This document shows, piece by piece, positions 2,579 to 10,460 of a stretch of 64,000 bases of DNA; the first letter of the stretch is position 1, and every line of letters starts with the position of its first letter. The DNA comes from Hymenobacter sp. DG25A. Its GTDB lineage: Bacteria > Bacteroidota > Bacteroidia > Cytophagales > Hymenobacteraceae. A model generated the notes under the pieces. It had not been told where the DNA came from. It was given only the letters and a program-made list of their open reading frames with translations, and searched no databases. The position numbers were made by a program, and so were the translations under genes. Where the stretch lies: positions 1,860,001 through 1,924,000 of the forward strand of contig NZ_CP012623.1 in assembly GCF_001280305.1 (NCBI RefSeq), written 5' to 3'.

Positions 2579-3910
2579 TTAAAGATTCAGTGGCAGGCCC
2601 TGGTAAAAATCTACTAGTCTGGTGCGCAAAATCAACTCGTACTTTGCTTTAAATAAGTCTGTTTGGGCATTCAAAAAAACCACTTTCGTTTGATTCAGCT
2701 CAAAAACGGAAATGGTGCCGTATTCATACTTTAAATTATCGGCCTCGTAACTTTTACGGGCAAACTCCTCTGCTTTGCGGGCCGCCTTCCAGCTTTGGCG
2801 AGCCGCCTCTGCATCGGCAATGGCTTGTTGTACCACTTTAGTTAACCGGTTGCGCTCTATATCGGTATCCAATAAACCCTGTTGATAACGCAGTCGGCTT
2901 TCCCGGATCAGCATATTATTTCGAAAGCTGTTGAACAGCGGGAGCGATAAGGACAGCCCCATTTCAAACTTCATGTTGTTGTTTAGCTGACTCCGGAAAT
3001 CGTAGCCGTCGCCGGTATTGCTATACTCCGAGTCCAGGTTGCCAGCTAACTGCAGGGTGGGAAATTTACTTGAGCGGGCCATCCCTATCTGATGGTAAAG
3101 CCGGGCCGCATTATGTCGTTTAGAGGCTAGCGCGGGTTGTGCTTCAATGGCCTGTTCCACCTGCTGCGCAGCAGGACGATGGAAATCTATATCCGATAAA
3201 TCGGTATCCGATAATGAGCTGATCATGATATTATCGGAGGGTTTGGCATTAATAAGCTGCCATAGGTCCAGGTAAGCCAGTGTCAGCTCATTTTTACTGT
3301 TAACCAGCTCTAACTGCTCCGAAGCCTGCTGCGACAACAGCTTAAACAACGCACTGGCCGGCACTCGGCCGGCATTCAGCTTTAGCTTCGTCAGCGCCAC
3401 CAGCCGCGTGCTTGCTTCTACTTGCTGCTCCCGGCTTTGGATCAGCTCCATGAGGTAGTTGATGCGAATATAGACCAGCGCTACATCCACCATAATGTCA
3501 TTTTTTATGGCCTGTACCTGGTAGGTATTCTGCGCAACTTCCTGCTTGGCTGCTTTGATAGCATGCGCGGTTTTGAACCCTTCAAATAGATAAACAGAGG
3601 AATTTACCGTGCCATTATGATATCTGAATTGCTCATTAATGTACTCATTGGTGAGCGGATCAATACTGCGCCCCACCACCTTGTTGCTATTTAAGGAGGC
3701 ATTGAGAACCGGCAGCAGCTCCGCTTTTTGACGCTTGAGCTGCACCCCGGCAACTTCCATATCAAGCTGCGCCCTTTTGAGCTGCAGGTTCTGTTGAAAG
3801 GCCCGGTCTATACATTCCGCATACGAAAGCCGATCCTGCCCTCTCCCGGGGCAGGCAATAGCCAGGAGCAGCACCAGCAAGGCTAAATGAGAGGCATAAT
3901 CAGGCTTCAT
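2579..3910 (-). CDS. TolC family outer membrane efflux protein
   Basis: Outer-membrane channel component of a type I-like exporter (443 aa). The N-terminus is a signal peptide (LALLVLLLAIACPGRGQ), followed by the family opening LSYAECIDRAFQQNLQLK and long amphipathic helices in two repeats, the second around QPALASKRHNAARL to the C-terminal QTKVVFLNAQTDLFKAKYELI. ATG 3910 is preferred: it puts the signal peptide at the start and overlaps the hlyD-like stop by 11 nt, which suggests translational coupling. An ATG at 3931 is also possible. With the HlyD-like protein and the C39 ABC transporter it would complete a conduit from cytoplasm to outside for the peptide encoded at 9131-9286. Confidence 0.88.
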   Translation of the reverse strand: MKPDYASHLALLVLLLAIACPGRGQDRLSYAECIDRAFQQNLQLKRAQLDMEVAGVQLKRQKAELLPVLNASLNSNKVVGRSIDPLTNEYINEQFRYHNGTVNSSVYLFEGFKTAHAIKAAKQEVAQNTYQVQAIKNDIMVDVALVYIRINYLMELIQSREQQVEASTRLVALTKLKLNAGRVPASALFKLLSQQASEQLELVNSKNELTLAYLDLWQLINAKPSDNIMISSLSDTDLSDIDFHRPAAQQVEQAIEAQPALASKRHNAARLYHQIGMARSSKFPTLQLAGNLDSEYSNTGDGYDFRSQLNNNMKFEMGLSLSLPLFNSFRNNMLIRESRLRYQQGLLDTDIERNRLTKVVQQAIADAEAARQSWKAARKAEEFARKSYEADNLKYEYGTISVFELNQTKVVFLNAQTDLFKAKYELILRTRLVDFYQGLPLNL

Positions 3911-5102
3911 TGTAAGTATCGATTTTATCAAATAGCTTTTTAACCGTGTACCGAAACAGCGTGTACTTACTGGTAATGATTTCCCCTTTCAGCTTATAGC
4001 CCGCTTTCAAAGGGAAGCGAGGTTTGCCGGTGATTTGAACAATGGTGAAAAACTGGTCATTTACATTGGCCGAGGAAATGAAAGCCACCCGCCCGTGAAC
4101 GGCGCCGTATTGATAGTGGTAATAGGCATTGATCTTAAGATTAACGGGTTGGCCCAGACGCACGTAGGCCAGCTCCCGCTCGGGTAATATCACTTTGGCG
4201 TAGAACTGCTCCTGATTAGGCGCAATAACTGCCAGCGGCTGATTCCGATCCAACAGCTCCGTTTTTTGCTGGCTGTTGTAGAGGTTAATAATGTGGCCGG
4301 CTACGGGCGCCCGCACAATGAGCTGGTTGGCAGCATCGCCTAAAACCACGGCCGAGTTACGCATGCCGGCCAGCTGAGAGCGAAGATCCAGCAGCTCCCG
4401 CTGCTTACTTTGCTCGTCCTGATGCAGCGAGTTAAGATCTATTTCAAGGCTGGTAAGCTGCTGCTGAAAGTTGTGCTGCAGCGTTGTCTGATATGCCTGT
4501 TTCTCCACATAGGCGGCCTTGCTGTCAGCAGCCTCCTTCCGTTTGATAAGGCTCCGGCTTTTCGATTCTACCGCATCCAGGCGGGAAAGCGCCTGGCGTT
4601 TGTAGAGAATAGAATCAGTCCGGTATTGGTCGCGGCTAATGGCGCTTTGCTGTTCGGCAAAGCGCCGGGCCGCCGCCAGGGCGCGCAGCTCGCGTTTGTT
4701 TTGTTCGCAGTCGGAGGCATATATCTGTTTGAGTAAGGTGCGCTGCCGCTCAATAGCCGCGCGCCGCTCCCGGGTATAGGCCAGCATGCGCTCCGCTACC
4801 GCAAGCTTTTTAGCGGTCAGACCAACCTCCTGCTGGGTAGTGGCATAGTCGTATTCCACCCGTTTGTTTTCCAGAATGAACAGGGTATCCCCCTTCTGCA
4901 CGTTGTCGCCTTCACGCGCAAACACCTTCAGCACCCGCACATCAATGGGCGTCCGAATGACGGATTGCGGGTTACGGGAGTAAATGGCGCCCTCCTTAAA
5001 ATCAATGGTTTCGTTGATTTTAAGAAAGCATAACAGCCCCACGCCCAGGACCAGAAAGCCAACCAACAGGCCGCAAAACATTTGAATCAGCCTGATAGCC
5101 AT
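3900..5102 (-). CDS. HlyD family periplasmic adaptor (membrane fusion protein)
   Basis: Links an inner-membrane ABC exporter to TolC. A single N-terminal membrane segment (MFCGLLVGFLVLGVGLLCFL) is followed by the first lipoyl half-motif (IRTPIDVRVLKVFAREGDNVQKGD), a long Gln/Glu/Arg-rich coiled coil (about residues 85-270), the second lipoyl half (LIVRAPVAGHIINLY) and a beta-barrel domain. The ATG at 5102 lies just after the exporter TAA (TAACATG); an ATG at 5129 would give 9 extra residues and overlap the exporter gene. This tight packing indicates co-translation with the C39 transporter. NHLM/bacteriocin-type adaptor function is inferred from context. Confidence 0.88.
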   Translation of the reverse strand: MAIRLIQMFCGLLVGFLVLGVGLLCFLKINETIDFKEGAIYSRNPQSVIRTPIDVRVLKVFAREGDNVQKGDTLFILENKRVEYDYATTQQEVGLTAKKLAVAERMLAYTRERRAAIERQRTLLKQIYASDCEQNKRELRALAAARRFAEQQSAISRDQYRTDSILYKRQALSRLDAVESKSRSLIKRKEAADSKAAYVEKQAYQTTLQHNFQQQLTSLEIDLNSLHQDEQSKQRELLDLRSQLAGMRNSAVVLGDAANQLIVRAPVAGHIINLYNSQQKTELLDRNQPLAVIAPNQEQFYAKVILPERELAYVRLGQPVNLKINAYYHYQYGAVHGRVAFISSANVNDQFFTIVQITGKPRFPLKAGYKLKGEIITSKYTLFRYTVKKLFDKIDTYNEA

Positions 5103-5103
5103 G

Positions 5104-7500
5104 TTAGGCCGGTGCGACAAATGTTCCATGCTCCAGGTGATAGTGCTTAGTGAAATGGATATAGTCTATCGTCTCGTGTGAAATCACAATCAGGATTTTA
5201 TTGGTAAACTCATCCAACAAACCCTCAATCTGCACGCGCGAGGCCGCGTCAATTCCGGAAAGAACTTCGTCCAGAATCAGCACATCGGCCGTAGAGAAAA
5301 GGGCCCGCAGCAGCAGCACCTTTTTGCGCTGCCCCGTGGAGAGGTTACGCCCGTTTTCATTGATGAGGAAGCCCAGTCCCTCCTCTTTGGTGGCTATGAA
5401 ATCATACAGGCCTATCTTCTTGGCCATCTTCATAATGCGGGCCGGCGACACCTTGCGGCCAAAAGCTATGTTATACTCGATACTATCGTTGAATAAAATA
5501 TCTTCGTTAGTGACCAGCAGCAGCTTTTCCTTTACTTTTTCCGGGTCGAAGAAGCGGCGGTCTGTCTCGTTGAGCAGCATCCGGCCTTTGGTTGGCTCAT
5601 AAAGGCCGGTCAGCACTTTGCTCAGCGTGGACTTGCCCGAGCCATTTTGGCCTTCAATGCGGATCTTATCGCCCAGCACCGCCTTCAGGGAGACGTTTTG
5701 TAAGACTAAATGCTGCGGATTATAGCCAAATTCCAGGTTTTGCAGCTCCAGGCTGGTTATTGAAAAGTCCTCTATGCCGCCGGCAGCCGCCGGCCGGGGA
5801 GTTTCTTCAAAATCCAGATAGCGCCGCAAAACCACCTCGTTTTCCTGCAGTTCCAGATTCTCGGACAGGATACCGCGCAGCGCAGAAAACACCCTTTCGG
5901 AGAGGGCTATATAGGTAATAATTTGCCCCAGGGAAATTTCATTGGCCGCAATGGCCTTTTTAGTCAGGATGATAATAATCAGCAGGGAGGCCGCCATGGT
6001 AATGATGGACACCACCGCGCTGTTCAGTAAGTCCACATACTTATTCCTCAGCTGCACCTTCAGCAACTGATCTACAATCTGCAGCAGCTTCCGGGAGTAT
6101 ATCTCCTCAATGCGAAATGATTTCAGAACCTGAATGCCGTCCAGCTTCTCAATCATGCGGGTGAAGAATTCGGATTTGCGCAAAAAGCGCAGGCGCTCAT
6201 TTTTCTTGAGTATGGGCGTTACCACGCGAAACCATACATAAAACACCGCCATTACAAAGCAGATAATCAGCGTCAGCTTGGCATCGATATAAAAGAGGAT
6301 GGCCAGCGAATAGAGCGACACGCATACATCGACAATAATGCTGGTGAAAAAGCGCAGGAAAAAGGTCTTTAGCCTAAAGGCATCACTCATCCTTTCGGTG
6401 AGGTCTCCCCGCTTGAAGGACTGGATGTAGGGAAGGGAATATTGGTTTAGCTTTTCATCAAAGCGGGTCAGAAAGTACTTATCCAGGATATTCCCCATGT
6501 GTACTCCCACAAAGGACACATTGAGCCGGGTTACCAGATCAAAGAGTTTGAAAACCCCCAGCCCAATGGCAAATACCACCAGGGTGTTCAGCTGATAGGA
6601 TGGCAGGATATAGTCAATAAGGATCTGGTTAATGAAAACCGACAGTTGGGCCGTCATGGCCGAAAACAAGGCCACGAAAATGTAGATATACCAAATGCGG
6701 CGGTTCTGGCCCAGATCCTGCAGCAGGGTCAGATAAGGGCTCTGCTCAGGCCGCACGCCGGCCGGCTGAAGGGGCTCCTGCCGGGGCTTCTCCGGTTGGG
6801 GTGCCACGGTTAATACCAGGGGCGTCCGGAGCATCATGCGGGTTTCTTCCTGCTGCAGCGCCCGGAAATGCTTGGGCAGCGCTCCGGCCTCCTGATTAAA
6901 GAGCAGGTCGTGCAGAAATTTTTGCTCGGCTTCGGGATCCTTCAGCCCAAAATTCTCTTTGAGATAAGAGAAATAAGAGAGCTTATTAAAGAGCGTACTG
7001 GCGTCGTTGGTGGTTAAGGCTTGTTCAATTCTGACATGGTAGGGCGCTAATTCCTGATTGCAGAGCACCATGAGCTTTTGCTCCATTTGCACCAGGTCCC
7101 AATAGCTCTTGCTGAAGTAAGCCATGTTCTTCAGCTCGGGTAGCGTCACATAATACTCATTGGCCCGGGCGGGGTCCAGTACGCGCAGCTTGTCGCCTTT
7201 TACTTTATCTACCACTACATAGTGCAGCCCATCCTCGTGCACAATGGGCATAATAAACGGCAGCAGTTCCTGCCAGGCCGCGGGCGTAGCTTGCAGATAA
7301 TGCACATCCAGCACCCGCAAACGAGTGGTAAACTCATGCTGCTGCAGGAAATTCTGTAAGTCGGTCAGGCTAGACCCCTGTTCATCTAAAAAGATGTTCT
7401 GCTGGATATACTTTCGACTAATATCCTGATCGAAAATATTGAAGATGGTTTTTACCGCGCTTACACCACAATCATTGTTTTTTAGCTGACAGTCCACCAT
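5104..7500 (-). CDS. Peptidase-containing ABC transporter (C39 peptidase, membrane domain, ATPase)
   Basis: Bacteriocin/RiPP exporter that would cut a double-glycine leader and export the core. Counting from the ATG at 7500, the C39 peptidase spans about residues 1-150 with Cys11 (NNDCGVSAVKTIF), His93 (DGLHYVVVD) and Asp109 (LDPA), so the catalytic triad is present. A six-helix membrane domain follows (about 265-560, for example IWYIYIFVALFSAMTAQLSVFI), then an ATPase with Walker A GQNGSGKS, signature LSTGQRKK, Walker B VLILDEVLSGID and ISHE. The frame is open to 7599, but the family normally starts just before the Gln/Cys motif, so 7500 is chosen (798 aa). It sits between the kinase and HlyD genes, all on the minus strand. 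Confidence 0.92.
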   Translation of the reverse strand: MVDCQLKNNDCGVSAVKTIFNIFDQDISRKYIQQNIFLDEQGSSLTDLQNFLQQHEFTTRLRVLDVHYLQATPAAWQELLPFIMPIVHEDGLHYVVVDKVKGDKLRVLDPARANEYYVTLPELKNMAYFSKSYWDLVQMEQKLMVLCNQELAPYHVRIEQALTTNDASTLFNKLSYFSYLKENFGLKDPEAEQKFLHDLLFNQEAGALPKHFRALQQEETRMMLRTPLVLTVAPQPEKPRQEPLQPAGVRPEQSPYLTLLQDLGQNRRIWYIYIFVALFSAMTAQLSVFINQILIDYILPSYQLNTLVVFAIGLGVFKLFDLVTRLNVSFVGVHMGNILDKYFLTRFDEKLNQYSLPYIQSFKRGDLTERMSDAFRLKTFFLRFFTSIIVDVCVSLYSLAILFYIDAKLTLIICFVMAVFYVWFRVVTPILKKNERLRFLRKSEFFTRMIEKLDGIQVLKSFRIEEIYSRKLLQIVDQLLKVQLRNKYVDLLNSAVVSIITMAASLLIIIILTKKAIAANEISLGQIITYIALSERVFSALRGILSENLELQENEVVLRRYLDFEETPRPAAAGGIEDFSITSLELQNLEFGYNPQHLVLQNVSLKAVLGDKIRIEGQNGSGKSTLSKVLTGLYEPTKGRMLLNETDRRFFDPEKVKEKLLLVTNEDILFNDSIEYNIAFGRKVSPARIMKMAKKIGLYDFIATKEEGLGFLINENGRNLSTGQRKKVLLLRALFSTADVLILDEVLSGIDAASRVQIEGLLDEFTNKILIVISHETIDYIHFTKHYHLEHGTFVAPA

Positions 7501-7564
7501 ATAATTCAGGATAAGAATGGATAGTATGTCGCAATTGGCTTCCGCGTCTTCCCAGAGGATTTTG

Positions 7565-8731
7565 CTAGGTAGCTTCCGCCATTGCAGCCGCGCTTTCAAC
7601 GGCCAGGGCGTGCTGCCACGTGCTTAATAGCTCCTGGCCAGAGGCATAGCGCGCGGCCGGGTCTTTCTCCAGCGCGCGCAACAAAACCTGCTCGTGCGGC
7701 ACGGAGGCGCTGAAATGCTGGCTGAAATCATAGCTGGCAATGGAGGCGGCGCGCTCCAGCCAGGTTTCGCCCGTAAAGGGCAGCCCCGTGTGATAGAGCT
7801 TGAAAATCACGAGGGCAATCTGGTACACTTCCGCCCGGAAGTCGGCGGCCTGCTTACTGAACTTGTAATTGTGATACCGGATGCGCTCCGGAGGCATATA
7901 AGTAGGTACGCCCCCACCACAGATGCACTGCTCCCGATCAGAAACGCCCACCCGATACGAAAAACCAAAGTCAATCATGGTGGCGCGGTCCTTATTCACC
8001 ATAAAGTTGCGGGCGTGAATGTCGCCGTGCACAATACCGTGGGTATGGAGATGTGCCAATGCCGCCAGAATCTGCGTAGCCAATAGCGTTTTATCAGCCT
8101 CCTGAATGCTGCCGCTCCGCACTGCCTCCGACAATGATTCTCCCGGCAGATATTCAAGAACAGCGTAGTGATATGGCTGAGTATGATAGGCATGCAGTGC
8201 GCAGATGCTTGGGTGCGCCGGCAAGGAACGCATGATATCAAACTCTTGCCGGAACTCTTCAAAGGCGTCATCCAGCCGGGTATTGCGGCGGATGCTCTCC
8301 GGTTTATGGGAAAACATTTTCAGCACCACCGCCTGACCGGATTCTTCATCGGTGGCGCGGTAGAGCTGCACCTTATTGTGCTGCATCAGTAAATCGGTAA
8401 TGAGATACTGCCCAAGGTGCGCGCCGGCTTCGTAAGCCGGTGGCAGAGGAGTTATTTCCGCTTCGCCCTCTTTTCGCACAACTTCCAGCCGGTGCAGGTC
8501 TTTCAGAAATTTGGCTACCAATGGCTCCACTACGGCCGTACTGGCGCCCTCAATCAGAGCTTGCAGGCCGCTAACCAACTCCTGAGCCGTTTTAGGTTTA
8601 TCCAGAAGGCCGATGAAAGTGGCAATTGTCCGGTTTATTTTATACTCGTGTTTAAATGTTTCGATATAAAATTCCTCTTCGTGTTCCAGCACGCTAACTC
8701 CTTGCGAAAGGTAGAATCGTTGGTCTATCAT
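7565..8731 (-). CDS. PqqD-like peptide-binding domain fused to a Ser/Thr protein kinase
   Basis: A 388-residue two-domain protein. Residues about 5-88 (YLSQGVSVLEHEEEFYIET ... INRTIATFIGLLDKPKTAQELV ... VAKFLKDLHRLEVV) match the pattern of PqqD-type RiPP recognition elements, which bind leader peptides. Residues about 105-380 form a complete Hanks-type kinase: Lys138 (VVLKMF), Glu163, HGDIHARN at 235-242 with catalytic Asp237 and Asn242, DFG at 254-256 and PPE at 280-282. Nothing key is missing, so it should be active. No LanC cyclase or lyase domain is fused. Lying between the precursor and the exporter, it is best read as a leader-guided kinase of the Ser-rich peptide; that target is an inference. 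Alternatively it could be a regulatory kinase. Confidence 0.88.
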   Translation of the reverse strand: MIDQRFYLSQGVSVLEHEEEFYIETFKHEYKINRTIATFIGLLDKPKTAQELVSGLQALIEGASTAVVEPLVAKFLKDLHRLEVVRKEGEAEITPLPPAYEAGAHLGQYLITDLLMQHNKVQLYRATDEESGQAVVLKMFSHKPESIRRNTRLDDAFEEFRQEFDIMRSLPAHPSICALHAYHTQPYHYAVLEYLPGESLSEAVRSGSIQEADKTLLATQILAALAHLHTHGIVHGDIHARNFMVNKDRATMIDFGFSYRVGVSDREQCICGGGVPTYMPPERIRYHNYKFSKQAADFRAEVYQIALVIFKLYHTGLPFTGETWLERAASIASYDFSQHFSASVPHEQVLLRALEKDPAARYASGQELLSTWQHALAVESAAAMAEAT

Positions 8732-9130
8732 AAAAGCAGAAGATTGGAAGATAATTGTAATTGAAGCGGCATAAGCAACCCTGGCAGCTACTGCTGCTCA
8801 TCGTCAGACAATTGGGAAGTAGTAGCGGAAAAGTGGCCCGGGCGCAAGCCTATAAGCCCCACCGTTGCGCAAGTCTGCGCAGCACTAATTTTGATTCCTC
8901 GCTGGGCTTATATTTTTCTATTCTTTCCTAAAGTACGTTTATATAATATGGGGTCTACTTAATTCATCCAGCTCAAGGAAAATTAAACAAAAGCTGAAAA
9001 GACAGAATTACGCTGGACTCTCCAGCTTTTGTTTAATTACCAAAACAAAACACACCTTATAATGATCAATAATTACCAACACCCTCATGCCATATCTTTA
9101 GTCAGGCAGCATTAGGGCATTGCTCCGAAC
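8732..9130. other. Intergenic stretch between precursor and kinase genes
   Basis: 399 bp with no convincing gene. Short minus-strand ATG frames here stop within a few codons, or run into the kinase gene out of frame without a Gly-Gly leader. It holds the long hairpin at 8981-9038. The promoter for the kinase operon, if separate from that of the precursor, would be here; no clear TAnnTTTG box was seen. Confidence 0.6.
8981..9038 (-). terminator. Long hairpin between peptide precursor and kinase operon (attenuator/terminator candidate)
   Basis: Perfect 16-base arms (AATTAAACAAAAGCTG at 8981-8996 and CAGCTTTTGTTTAATT at 9023-9038) enclose a 26-base loop. On the minus strand it lies 93 bp after the precursor stop and is followed by a short T-rich stretch. 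In RiPP loci such a structure often lets the precursor mRNA exceed the downstream enzyme and export genes, or protects its 3' end. That role here is inferred. Confidence 0.6.
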
Positions 9131-9286
9131 TTAGCAATGGCGACGACGACGACGGTGGCTGCTTGAGCTAGTGGTGGAGCTAGAGCTAGAGCTCTTGCTA
9201 TGCCAGCGGCGGCGACGATGGCCGCCAACAATTAACTCTACTTCCTGCACTTGCAACTCAGACACGAGGTTTTCTAAAGTAAGCAT
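9131..9286 (-). CDS. RiPP precursor peptide with double-glycine leader and Arg/Ser-block core
   Basis: A 51-residue ORF on the minus strand, ATG at 9286 and TAA at 9133-9131. The leader MLTLENLVSELQVQEVELIV ends in Gly21-Gly22, a standard C39 cleavage site with hydrophobic residues at the usual spacing before GG. The predicted 29-residue core is H-R4-W-H-S-K, then six Ser, two Thr and four Ser, then H-R5-H and a terminal Cys51. So 13 of 29 core residues are Ser/Thr and 9 are Arg, with near mirror symmetry around the Ser/Thr block. It lies directly upstream of a PqqD-kinase fusion, a C39 exporter, HlyD and TolC on the same strand. Core identity and secretion are inferred from leader and context; no homologue is known to me. 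Low complexity alone could arise by chance, but the combination with the GG leader makes that unlikely. Confidence 0.85.
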   Translation of the reverse strand: MLTLENLVSELQVQEVELIVGGHRRRRWHSKSSSSSSTTSSSSHRRRRRHC

Positions 9287-9779: not shown

Positions 9780-10460
9780 TCAGCGGCCTTGGATGCCTGG
9801 GTAGAGTTCAGTTACAATATCACTCTGTACAAACTCCTTGGTGCGCACATTCATCATACTTAAGCGGCCGGAAAAGCCGGCGCCCTGATCCAGGTTCCAC
9901 ACGTTGGCCCGCTGACAGGGCACCTGGCTCCAGCTCCAGGTAGGTGTATGGCCGATAAAGCATTCTTCGTATCCCAGGGCCTCCTGCTCCTCCCTCCACA
10001 GCCTCCGCGACCAAACCAGGTCATAAGGGTCCTGCGCCCCAATAGGCTCAGCCGGATCGTAGCCGGCATGCACGTAGAGGTTGTTATGCTCGTCTTCGAA
10101 GTAAGGCCGCTGCTCGCCAAAGAAAGCGGAAAAGTGGCGCCCCAGGTCCTCCTTTGGCCGCTGCTGATACGCCTCCAGAGTAGCCTGCCCCCCCTGCCGA
10201 TACCACGCTTTGTTGACGGCCTCTACCGGCGGCTGAGTGGCCAGCCACTCAGCCGCCCACCAGTCGTGGTTGCCCTGCAGCCAAATGCTGTTAGGAATAC
10301 TGAGCAGCCGCTCCACGCAAGCCGGCGTTTCAGGCCAGCCGTCCGCCACATCTCCCAGCTGGATCAGACGGTCAATGCCCAGACGAAAAGGGCTGCGGTC
10401 CAGCACCTGTTGTAGGGCCCGATAAGCACCATGTATGTCCCCTATCACATACGTTTCCAT
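9780..10460 (-). CDS. Metallophosphoesterase (PPP-like serine/threonine phosphatase family)
   Basis: 226 aa soluble enzyme with all calcineurin-like metal motifs: GDIHG (residues 7-11), GDVADG, GNHDWW, a His in YVHAGYD and GHTP near 170. These ligands bind two metals and hydrolyse phosphomonoesters; relatives act as protein phosphatases or on diadenosine tetraphosphate. No signal peptide is present, so it is cytoplasmic. It is on the same strand as the RiPP locus but separated by the AT-rich block, so a role in dephosphorylating the peptide or its kinase is only a possibility. Such genes are common housekeeping genes in this group. Confidence 0.88.
   Translation of the reverse strand: METYVIGDIHGAYRALQQVLDRSPFRLGIDRLIQLGDVADGWPETPACVERLLSIPNSIWLQGNHDWWAAEWLATQPPVEAVNKAWYRQGGQATLEAYQQRPKEDLGRHFSAFFGEQRPYFEDEHNNLYVHAGYDPAEPIGAQDPYDLVWSRRLWREEQEALGYEECFIGHTPTWSWSQVPCQRANVWNLDQGAGFSGRLSMMNVRTKEFVQSDIVTELYPGIQGR

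Follow-up and report, generated by a model that had tools for sequence, protein, structure and literature searches.

What does a peptide operon make when the one modifying enzyme that it visibly encodes is a protein kinase? The question is raised by a gene row of Hymenobacter sp. DG25A that lies in a stretch of 64,000 nucleotides (hereafter the window), bases 1860001-1924000 of a genome assembled as one contig of 3.78 Mb (NZ_CP012623.1). In this row a short peptide gene precedes the gene of a kinase with a fused recognition element (RRE) of the kind known from ribosomally synthesized and post-translationally modified peptides (RiPPs), and the genes of a C39-peptidase exporter follow. Our answer, to which we assign a probability of about three in four, is that the operon is a RiPP system for an exported peptide, probably linear, that would carry phosphate at multiple sites; the phosphorylation we infer from the genes. 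Multi-site phosphorylation is the best explanation for the combination of an RRE-kinase fusion, a leader peptide, cores rich in Ser/Thr and charged residues, the absence of a second enzyme, a cleaving exporter and, in some relatives, a phosphatase. A kinase-phosphorylated exported peptide was also the main idea of an earlier note on this DNA, and that idea is supported by the tests run, as far as gene content can speak for chemistry.

In the mechanism that we propose, the RRE domain would bind the conserved leader, in keeping with its computed RRE-like fold and the computed leader conservation. The tethered Hanks-type kinase would phosphorylate many of the 5-22 Ser/Thr residues found in each low-complexity core, with a low demand on the surrounding sequence, a tolerance that core composition and the kept catalytic residues suggest. 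The C39 domain would cleave after GG or AG and the ABC-HlyD-TolC assembly would export the phosphopeptide, roles that are established for these protein families.

The operon and its relatives

The set of five genes on one strand that the earlier note had described is present in full. It lies on the minus strand and is transcribed in the order precursor, RRE-kinase, C39-ABC exporter, HlyD adaptor and TolC channel, with a precursor gene of 51 amino acids (9131-9286, minus strand) and a kinase fusion gene of 388 amino acids (7565-8731, minus strand). The features are the following:

9221..9286, minus strand: leader of the precursor, residues 1-22, MLTLENLVSELQVQEVELIVGG (ORF, relatives' matches and leader profile)
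9131..9220, minus strand: core of the precursor, 29 residues, HRRRRWHSKSSSSSSTTSSSSHRRRRRHC, with 13 Ser/Thr and a charge of +10, plus the stop codon
8978..9041, minus strand: RNA hairpin in the precursor-kinase gap, -29 kcal/mol, z -6.2 (computed folding)
8483..8731, minus strand: RRE (PqqD-like) domain of the fusion, residues 1-83 (Pfam and model comparison)
7592..8437, minus strand: Hanks-type kinase domain, about residues 99-380, with Lys138, Glu163, Asp237, Asn242 and Asp254 (Pfam, alignment and structure comparison)
5104..7599 by the rule for open reading frames (ORFs), minus strand: C39-peptidase ABC exporter, start probably near 7500 (Pfam and homology)
3900..5129, minus strand: HlyD-family adaptor (Pfam)
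2579..3931, minus strand: TolC-type outer membrane channel, OEP (Pfam)

The kinase gene matches Pkinase (2.8e-29), and the exporter genes match Peptidase_C39 (7.2e-16), ABC_membrane (6.1e-28), ABC_tran (1.6e-21), HlyD_3 (1.7e-13) and OEP (4.6e-45). The exporter unites a C39 domain having Cys and His with ABC membrane and ATPase domains; Cys plus a later His are also present in 23 ORFs selected by a DCG string rule. Since homology of the exporter protein begins at residues 19-34, its true start is probably near 7500.

The earlier note had proposed to search Bacteroidota for PqqD-kinase genes beside C39 transporters and to align the short ORFs upstream. This search yielded relatives whose upstream ORFs could be compared, and 27 loci were examined in total: the window, L008-L013, L036-L053, L078 and L079. 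Of the 44 loci from a scan of named genomes, L033-L053 were kept and L054-L076 (23) dropped as partial kinase matches, while L033-L035 were merged as duplicates with L008, L010 and L011, and L077 with L051. The genera represented are Hymenobacter, which holds close kinase relatives, Segetibacter, Ilyomonas, Lunatibacter, Cyclobacterium, Pararhodonellum and Spirosoma, to which a protein search adds Adhaeribacter. Two loci, L039 (a 3.6-kb contig labelled Heimdallarchaeota) and L049 (a metagenome-assembled genome labelled Williamsia), look like misplaced Bacteroidota contigs. At L052 (7172-8665, likewise a metagenome-assembled genome) frame breaks, perhaps sequencing errors, split the kinase and C39 genes.

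The kinase is rare. It was found in 7 of 204 genomes of the window's own family (E<=1e-20) and, at 1e-52, in 6 of 196 genomes of the Cyclobacteriaceae (family of genome G497) and in 4 of 200 of the family of G437, which includes Spirosoma; one of these four, G1404, was matched via the kinase domain only. Wider samples at 1e-40 gave matches in 76 of 395 genomes of the phylum and 26 of 395 of the class, which do not demonstrate further family members. The matches listed there cover the kinase domain only, mostly from profile position 80-125, except those of the own genome and of G213, where the match spans 21-396 with two in-frame stops. A single-protein scan across the named genomes returned no match, and a search of proteins with eleven second-branch kinases as queries gave a list of 93 entries at 1e-45, several being the queries themselves. 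Two loci from the window's own family, L012 and L013, group with Segetibacter in the kinase tree and not with Hymenobacter (fork support 92/94), a hint of transfer between lineages.

The kinase, C39-ABC and HlyD genes are consecutive on one strand in all 22 non-Spirosoma loci with enough contig, HlyD being cut by the contig end in L046. The outer membrane channel gene comes next in 19 of these 22, the exceptions being L046 (cut), L038, where it lies on the opposite strand about 2 kb further, and L036, where none was found. The L039 contig stops within the C39 gene, from which the kinase is separated by two further ORFs. Among the Spirosoma loci, L043, L044 and L079 have their C39-ABC gene in divergent orientation to precursor and kinase. 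An outer membrane channel gene adjoins it in all three, and at least L043 and L079 also have an adaptor-like protein without Pfam recognition; the L048 locus is truncated at its contig end. An exporter of the window type (E<=1e-80) occurs in 5 of 150 family genomes, always directly beside the kinase.

Leaders, cores and the kinase

The earlier note had predicted a GG-leader ORF upstream of related kinases, and this prediction holds: in all 26 testable loci the kinase is directly preceded by a short peptide gene (45-99 amino acids) with a GG or AG leader, confirmed in frame. The precursor of L039 cannot be seen because its contig begins 92 bases before the kinase, and for L037 and L050 longer starts are also possible. 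The common leader pattern is approximately MITLEKxxxELxxxxxNEIVGG, with GG or AG preceding the core and with longer leaders in the Spirosoma loci, L036 and L038. The 22-residue leader of the window has counterparts at 68-82% (E 1.2e-8 to 3.3e-5) in identically placed ORFs of four congeneric genomes; together with the leader ORF at every testable locus, this argues that the precursor is not a chance ORF. While the leaders are alike across loci, the cores are nearly unrelated, so that each testable locus combines the small precursor gene, conserved leader, variable core and adjoining enzyme of a RiPP system. Near the 27 loci, the leader profile gave two weak matches to additional precursors (E 0.39 and 3.9), neither of which was accepted.

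Between the precursor stop and the kinase start, a stable hairpin is present in 26 of 26 loci, in sequences that are unrelated outside close kin. Its energy is reached by none of 40 dinucleotide shuffles in 23 of the 26. For the window one shuffle in 40 reaches it, and none of 200 does when the 86-base stretch is taken alone (-29 kcal/mol, z -6.2). T-rich tails follow the hairpin in many loci, not all. These properties fit a leaky terminator keeping precursor RNA in excess, probably above the RNA of enzyme and exporter, and the hairpin also speaks for the peptide ORF being a real gene.

The cores are of SR/SK-repeat, KT-repeat and acidic SSE/SSD-repeat types and are Ser/Thr-rich in most loci. 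In addition to the window core given above, examples are L050 (KHGKTKTRTKTKTKTRTRTRTRKHGTKYY), L045 (SSASSMSGESSESSESSLSSVSSESSSSS), L051 (SSSSSDSISSDSSLSSESSLSSDSSESSFSS), the internal part of L048 (...SKKSKKSKKSNKSNK...) and the ends of L008 (...SNSNSRSKKNKRSKKNKRSHSRSRSNSCGC) and L012 (...SYSKSHSRSCSKSKSRSHSHHGKKRRKNKKCKY). The 26 cores hold 5-22 Ser/Thr each (median 11.5), and by net charge they divide into 18 with +5 or more, 6 with -3 or less and 2 with intermediate values. The composition control consisted of the C-terminal portions of 2341 further short ORFs from the same loci, and not of other C39-type precursors. The mean Ser/Thr fraction is 0.37 in the cores and 0.16 in this control (Mann-Whitney p 1e-11, rows not independent), and a fraction of at least 0.30 is reached by 15 of the 26 cores, compared to 7.4% of the control ORFs. 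The KT-repeat cores of L041, L046, L049, L050 and L052, from several lineages, all terminate in Tyr-Tyr.

Synonymous and nonsynonymous differences over the whole precursor number 16:6 for L045/L042, 16:6 for L041/L052, 9:3 for L051/L078 and 2:1 for L045/L047, and 18:14, 11:9, 16:14, 19:16, 22:23 and 5:16 for more distant pairs. Taken with an unremarkable retention of Ser/Thr sites (see below), these counts are suggestive, and only suggestive, of selection on the precursor in close pairs, under which composition and not position seems to persist.

The kinase domain has a kinase fold with the catalytic Lys, Glu, Asp, Asn and Asp of the Hanks type and is PknB-like in the structure comparison. In an alignment of 112 kinases (107 being the window's and database proteins of at least 350 amino acids, and 5 from the loci), Lys138, Asp237 and Asp254 are kept in 112 and Glu163 and Asn242 in 111. 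The domain also matches the LanL (1.7e-20) and LanKC (1.1e-15) profiles; kinship would be compatible with the absence of LanKC/LanL structures from the matches listed in the structure comparison. For the N-terminal domain, the Pfam score for PqqD is 22.1 bits (1.9e-4), slightly below the cut-off of 23.4 bits. When modelled alone, it is predicted to combine a winged helix with a three-strand sheet, and its best matches are leader-binding RREs together with PqqD.

Several observations weigh against multi-site phosphorylation and have to be set beside this evidence. The 26 loci are kin and hence not independent. Four cores (L043, L048, L037 and L044) have Ser/Thr fractions of only 0.14-0.18, which do not exceed the control mean; three of the four are regular KS repeats all the same, and the L011 core is short, slightly acidic and partly hydrophobic, with only 7 Ser/Thr. 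In ten related precursor pairs, Ser/Thr sites are not clearly better conserved than other core sites (for L009/L010, 9 of 15 are kept, compared to 19 of 27). The RRE matches are modest, with a best Z of 6.3, and the unrelated chain 8hkr (5.6) ties with them. An electrostatic pairing of the kinase domain with core charge was rejected (rho -0.05, p 0.81, 25 rows); for the full protein the correlation is weak (-0.37, p 0.07, 25 rows), and a negative one obtained with the N-terminal part (-0.56, p 0.004) comes from related rows and was not used. Finally, the glycine-rich loop (GxGxxG) is degenerate across the family. The earlier note had called the Ser/Thr kinase intact, which is right for the catalytic residues and not for this loop.

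The degenerate loop, together with a catalytic loop that reads HGDIHxxN, with His at the usual Lys position, would also be compatible with a kinase fold that transfers a group other than phosphate, such as AMP, as the pseudokinase SelO does. We consider this very improbable. Even less credence is given to a regulatory kinase, acting on the exporter or on some other process of the cell, for example in defence, while the peptide is exported unmodified. The domain does match defence-kinase profiles (PD-T4-6, 9.9e-37), but these matches are generic and cover the kinase domain only, and a defence kinase identity was rejected. A regulatory role would moreover leave unexplained the RRE-like fusion, the leader gene at each testable locus and the Ser/Thr-rich cores.

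Companion genes and the fate of the phosphate

Pfam assigns ten flanking proteins of the window to MlaE permease, ABC ATPase, DinB, bifunctional nuclease, ETF alpha, ETF beta, B12-binding, outer-membrane-type protein and M28 peptidase, with one left without a match. None of these, nor the phosphoesterase at 9780-10460, is a RiPP-modifying enzyme by Pfam, as the earlier note had claimed for the vicinity of the operon; YcaO and radical SAM enzymes were covered by these window scans. The phosphoesterase, which is calcineurin-like and lies upstream of the precursor, is unmatched in the six relatives L008-L013 and was not counted as part of the operon. Among recurrent neighbours, six non-operon clusters contain no RiPP-modifying enzyme by Pfam, the rest of the at least 25 clusters having been judged by eye.

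In six loci (L042, L045, L047, L051, L053 and L078) a PP2C phosphatase gene directly follows the outer membrane channel gene. These are the six with acidic cores, and they form one kinase clade (support 100/98). The L042 protein matches PP2C_2 (6.4e-12), the other five are 39-64% identical, and the motifs NED, DGxGG, GDS, DG and DN are present; no PP2C was found in the remaining loci at E<=1e-4. The description of the kinase as the only candidate modifying enzyme is therefore correct for the window and has to be amended for these six relatives. In the acidic-core branch the phosphatase, encoded in the same gene row, may edit or reset the phosphorylation.

It is also conceivable that phosphorylation is a first step and that a lyase encoded elsewhere eliminates the phosphates to give a peptide rich in dehydroalanine and dehydrobutyrine, as in class III-V lanthipeptides. 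The class V pathway works by a kinase plus a lyase according to PMC9486802. A lyase or cyclase, by which class III/IV/V lanthipeptide systems are recognized, was found neither in the kinase protein nor in the window flanks, and no such lyase is among the recurrent neighbours scanned. Over 15 genomes, LanC exceeds the cut-off in one (with one further weak match below it), LanB-N in one and HopA1 in none; a standing lyase or cyclase partner, named by the earlier note as a finding that would speak against its idea, is thus not seen. The sole genome with both LanB and LanC, a Spirosoma (G1477), carries them on contigs C215, C224 and C225, different from the kinase contig, and they are of the class I lanthipeptide type. 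A VRP3/OspF-type lyase was found in 0 of 15 genomes with no positive-control genome responding, so an OspF-like enzyme is still conceivable. Thioether rings would require Cys, which is absent from 12 of the 26 cores and single in 2, the window's among them, and the companion in six loci is a phosphatase, not a lyase. All in all, elimination appears quite improbable.

Another option is that the phosphate is a temporary mask that keeps a strongly basic, possibly membrane-active peptide harmless or soluble in the cell until it is dephosphorylated. The charge of +5 or more in 18 of 26 cores and the PP2C genes in six operons would agree with this. However, the PP2C loci are the acidic-core ones, where masking of basic charge makes no sense, the phosphatase has no export signal visible by eye, and acidic and basic cores are served by one machinery. 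We therefore regard masking as unlikely.

If multiple phosphates are instead the final decoration, their dense placement between Lys/Arg or Glu/Asp residues would point to a polyelectrolyte that binds ions or surfaces. More specifically, and as a tentative idea that we ourselves doubt, it could be an extracellular polyelectrolyte that binds divalent ions or minerals or builds matrix, a bacterial counterpart of silaffin- or dentin-type phosphopeptides. A lipoprotein-like protein common to seven loci (L042, L051, L078, L041, L046, L050 and L052) bears on this idea: an Asp/Glu run of 15-24 is present in L042, L051 and L078, three of the six acidic-core loci, whereas the homologues beside basic KT cores (L041, L046, L050 and L052) have no such run of at least 8. 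Its gene and one for a CHAT-TPR protein adjoin the operon (L042:16701-20454, L051:7494-11277, L041:3446-7156; L078:2427-3380). The CHAT-TPR protein occurs in six of the seven loci, the L078 stretch ending too early to tell, and four of the seven share an ECF-type sigma factor. Silaffins, dentin phosphoprotein and SR proteins are heavily phosphorylated on low-complexity SK/SR or SSD repeats, which the present cores resemble in composition alone, and no homology is claimed.

Known systems and significance

The earlier note knew of no described family with this gene set. The set itself was not found in the open PMC literature, the scope of our search, with most subscription papers and bioRxiv outside coverage, but polyphosphorylated linear RiPPs made by a different kinase type were published in May 2026. 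According to PMC13381572, these linear polyphosphorylated peptides (LPPs) of Bacillota receive several phosphates on one Ser, Ser3, from an HprK-like kinase. They share with the present system a linear RiPP, an RRE, a dedicated kinase, no cyclase and phosphate as the chief modification. Their own are the HprK-like kinase with a separate RRE, an SpI-type leader peptidase, an NTP transferase and an MsbA-like exporter, whereas here a Hanks-type kinase is fused to the RRE, the exporter is of the C39 type and many Ser/Thr are candidate sites. In the window, the kinase is PknB-like, the exporter is C39-ABC, and the other LPP genes are absent among the proteins scanned.

Class III/IV LanKC/LanL and class V LanK likewise act as leader-guided kinases on core Ser/Thr (PMC10604976, PMC9486802), and CaoK without its lyase gives up to four phosphates (PMC9486802). 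They differ from the system here, in which neither the kinase protein nor a linked gene supplies a lyase or cyclase and many cores are without Cys, and class II-V lanthipeptide enzymes are described as having no identifiable RRE (PMC10604976), while here it is fused to the kinase. Paeninodin-type lasso peptide kinases (cited in PMC13381572) are RiPP tailoring kinases too, but they have an HprK-like fold and add an accessory modification to a lasso peptide; lasso genes are absent here. C39 (PCAT)-exported Bacteroidales RiPPs share the GG-leader precursor, C39 exporter, adaptor and outer membrane protein, and differ in using radical SAM and other enzymes, the kinases mentioned there being regulatory histidine kinases (PMC10352776). 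What is described here is best read as a RiPP system with one recent neighbour, the LPPs, which is close in the proposed chemistry and not in machinery.

To our knowledge, secreted bacterial peptides with phosphate as their main decoration are very rare. Where the kinases have been named at all, the names are generic (serine/threonine kinase, Bud32 etc.), and the family is therefore easily overlooked. If the proposal is true, the RiPPs would gain a group whose end product carries phosphate on many residues, put there by a eukaryotic-like kinase that has its own grip on the leader. The enzyme could then serve as a tool for phosphorylating chosen low-complexity peptides, and bacteria would turn out to secrete phosphopeptides similar to the repeats found in phosphoproteins of animals and diatoms.

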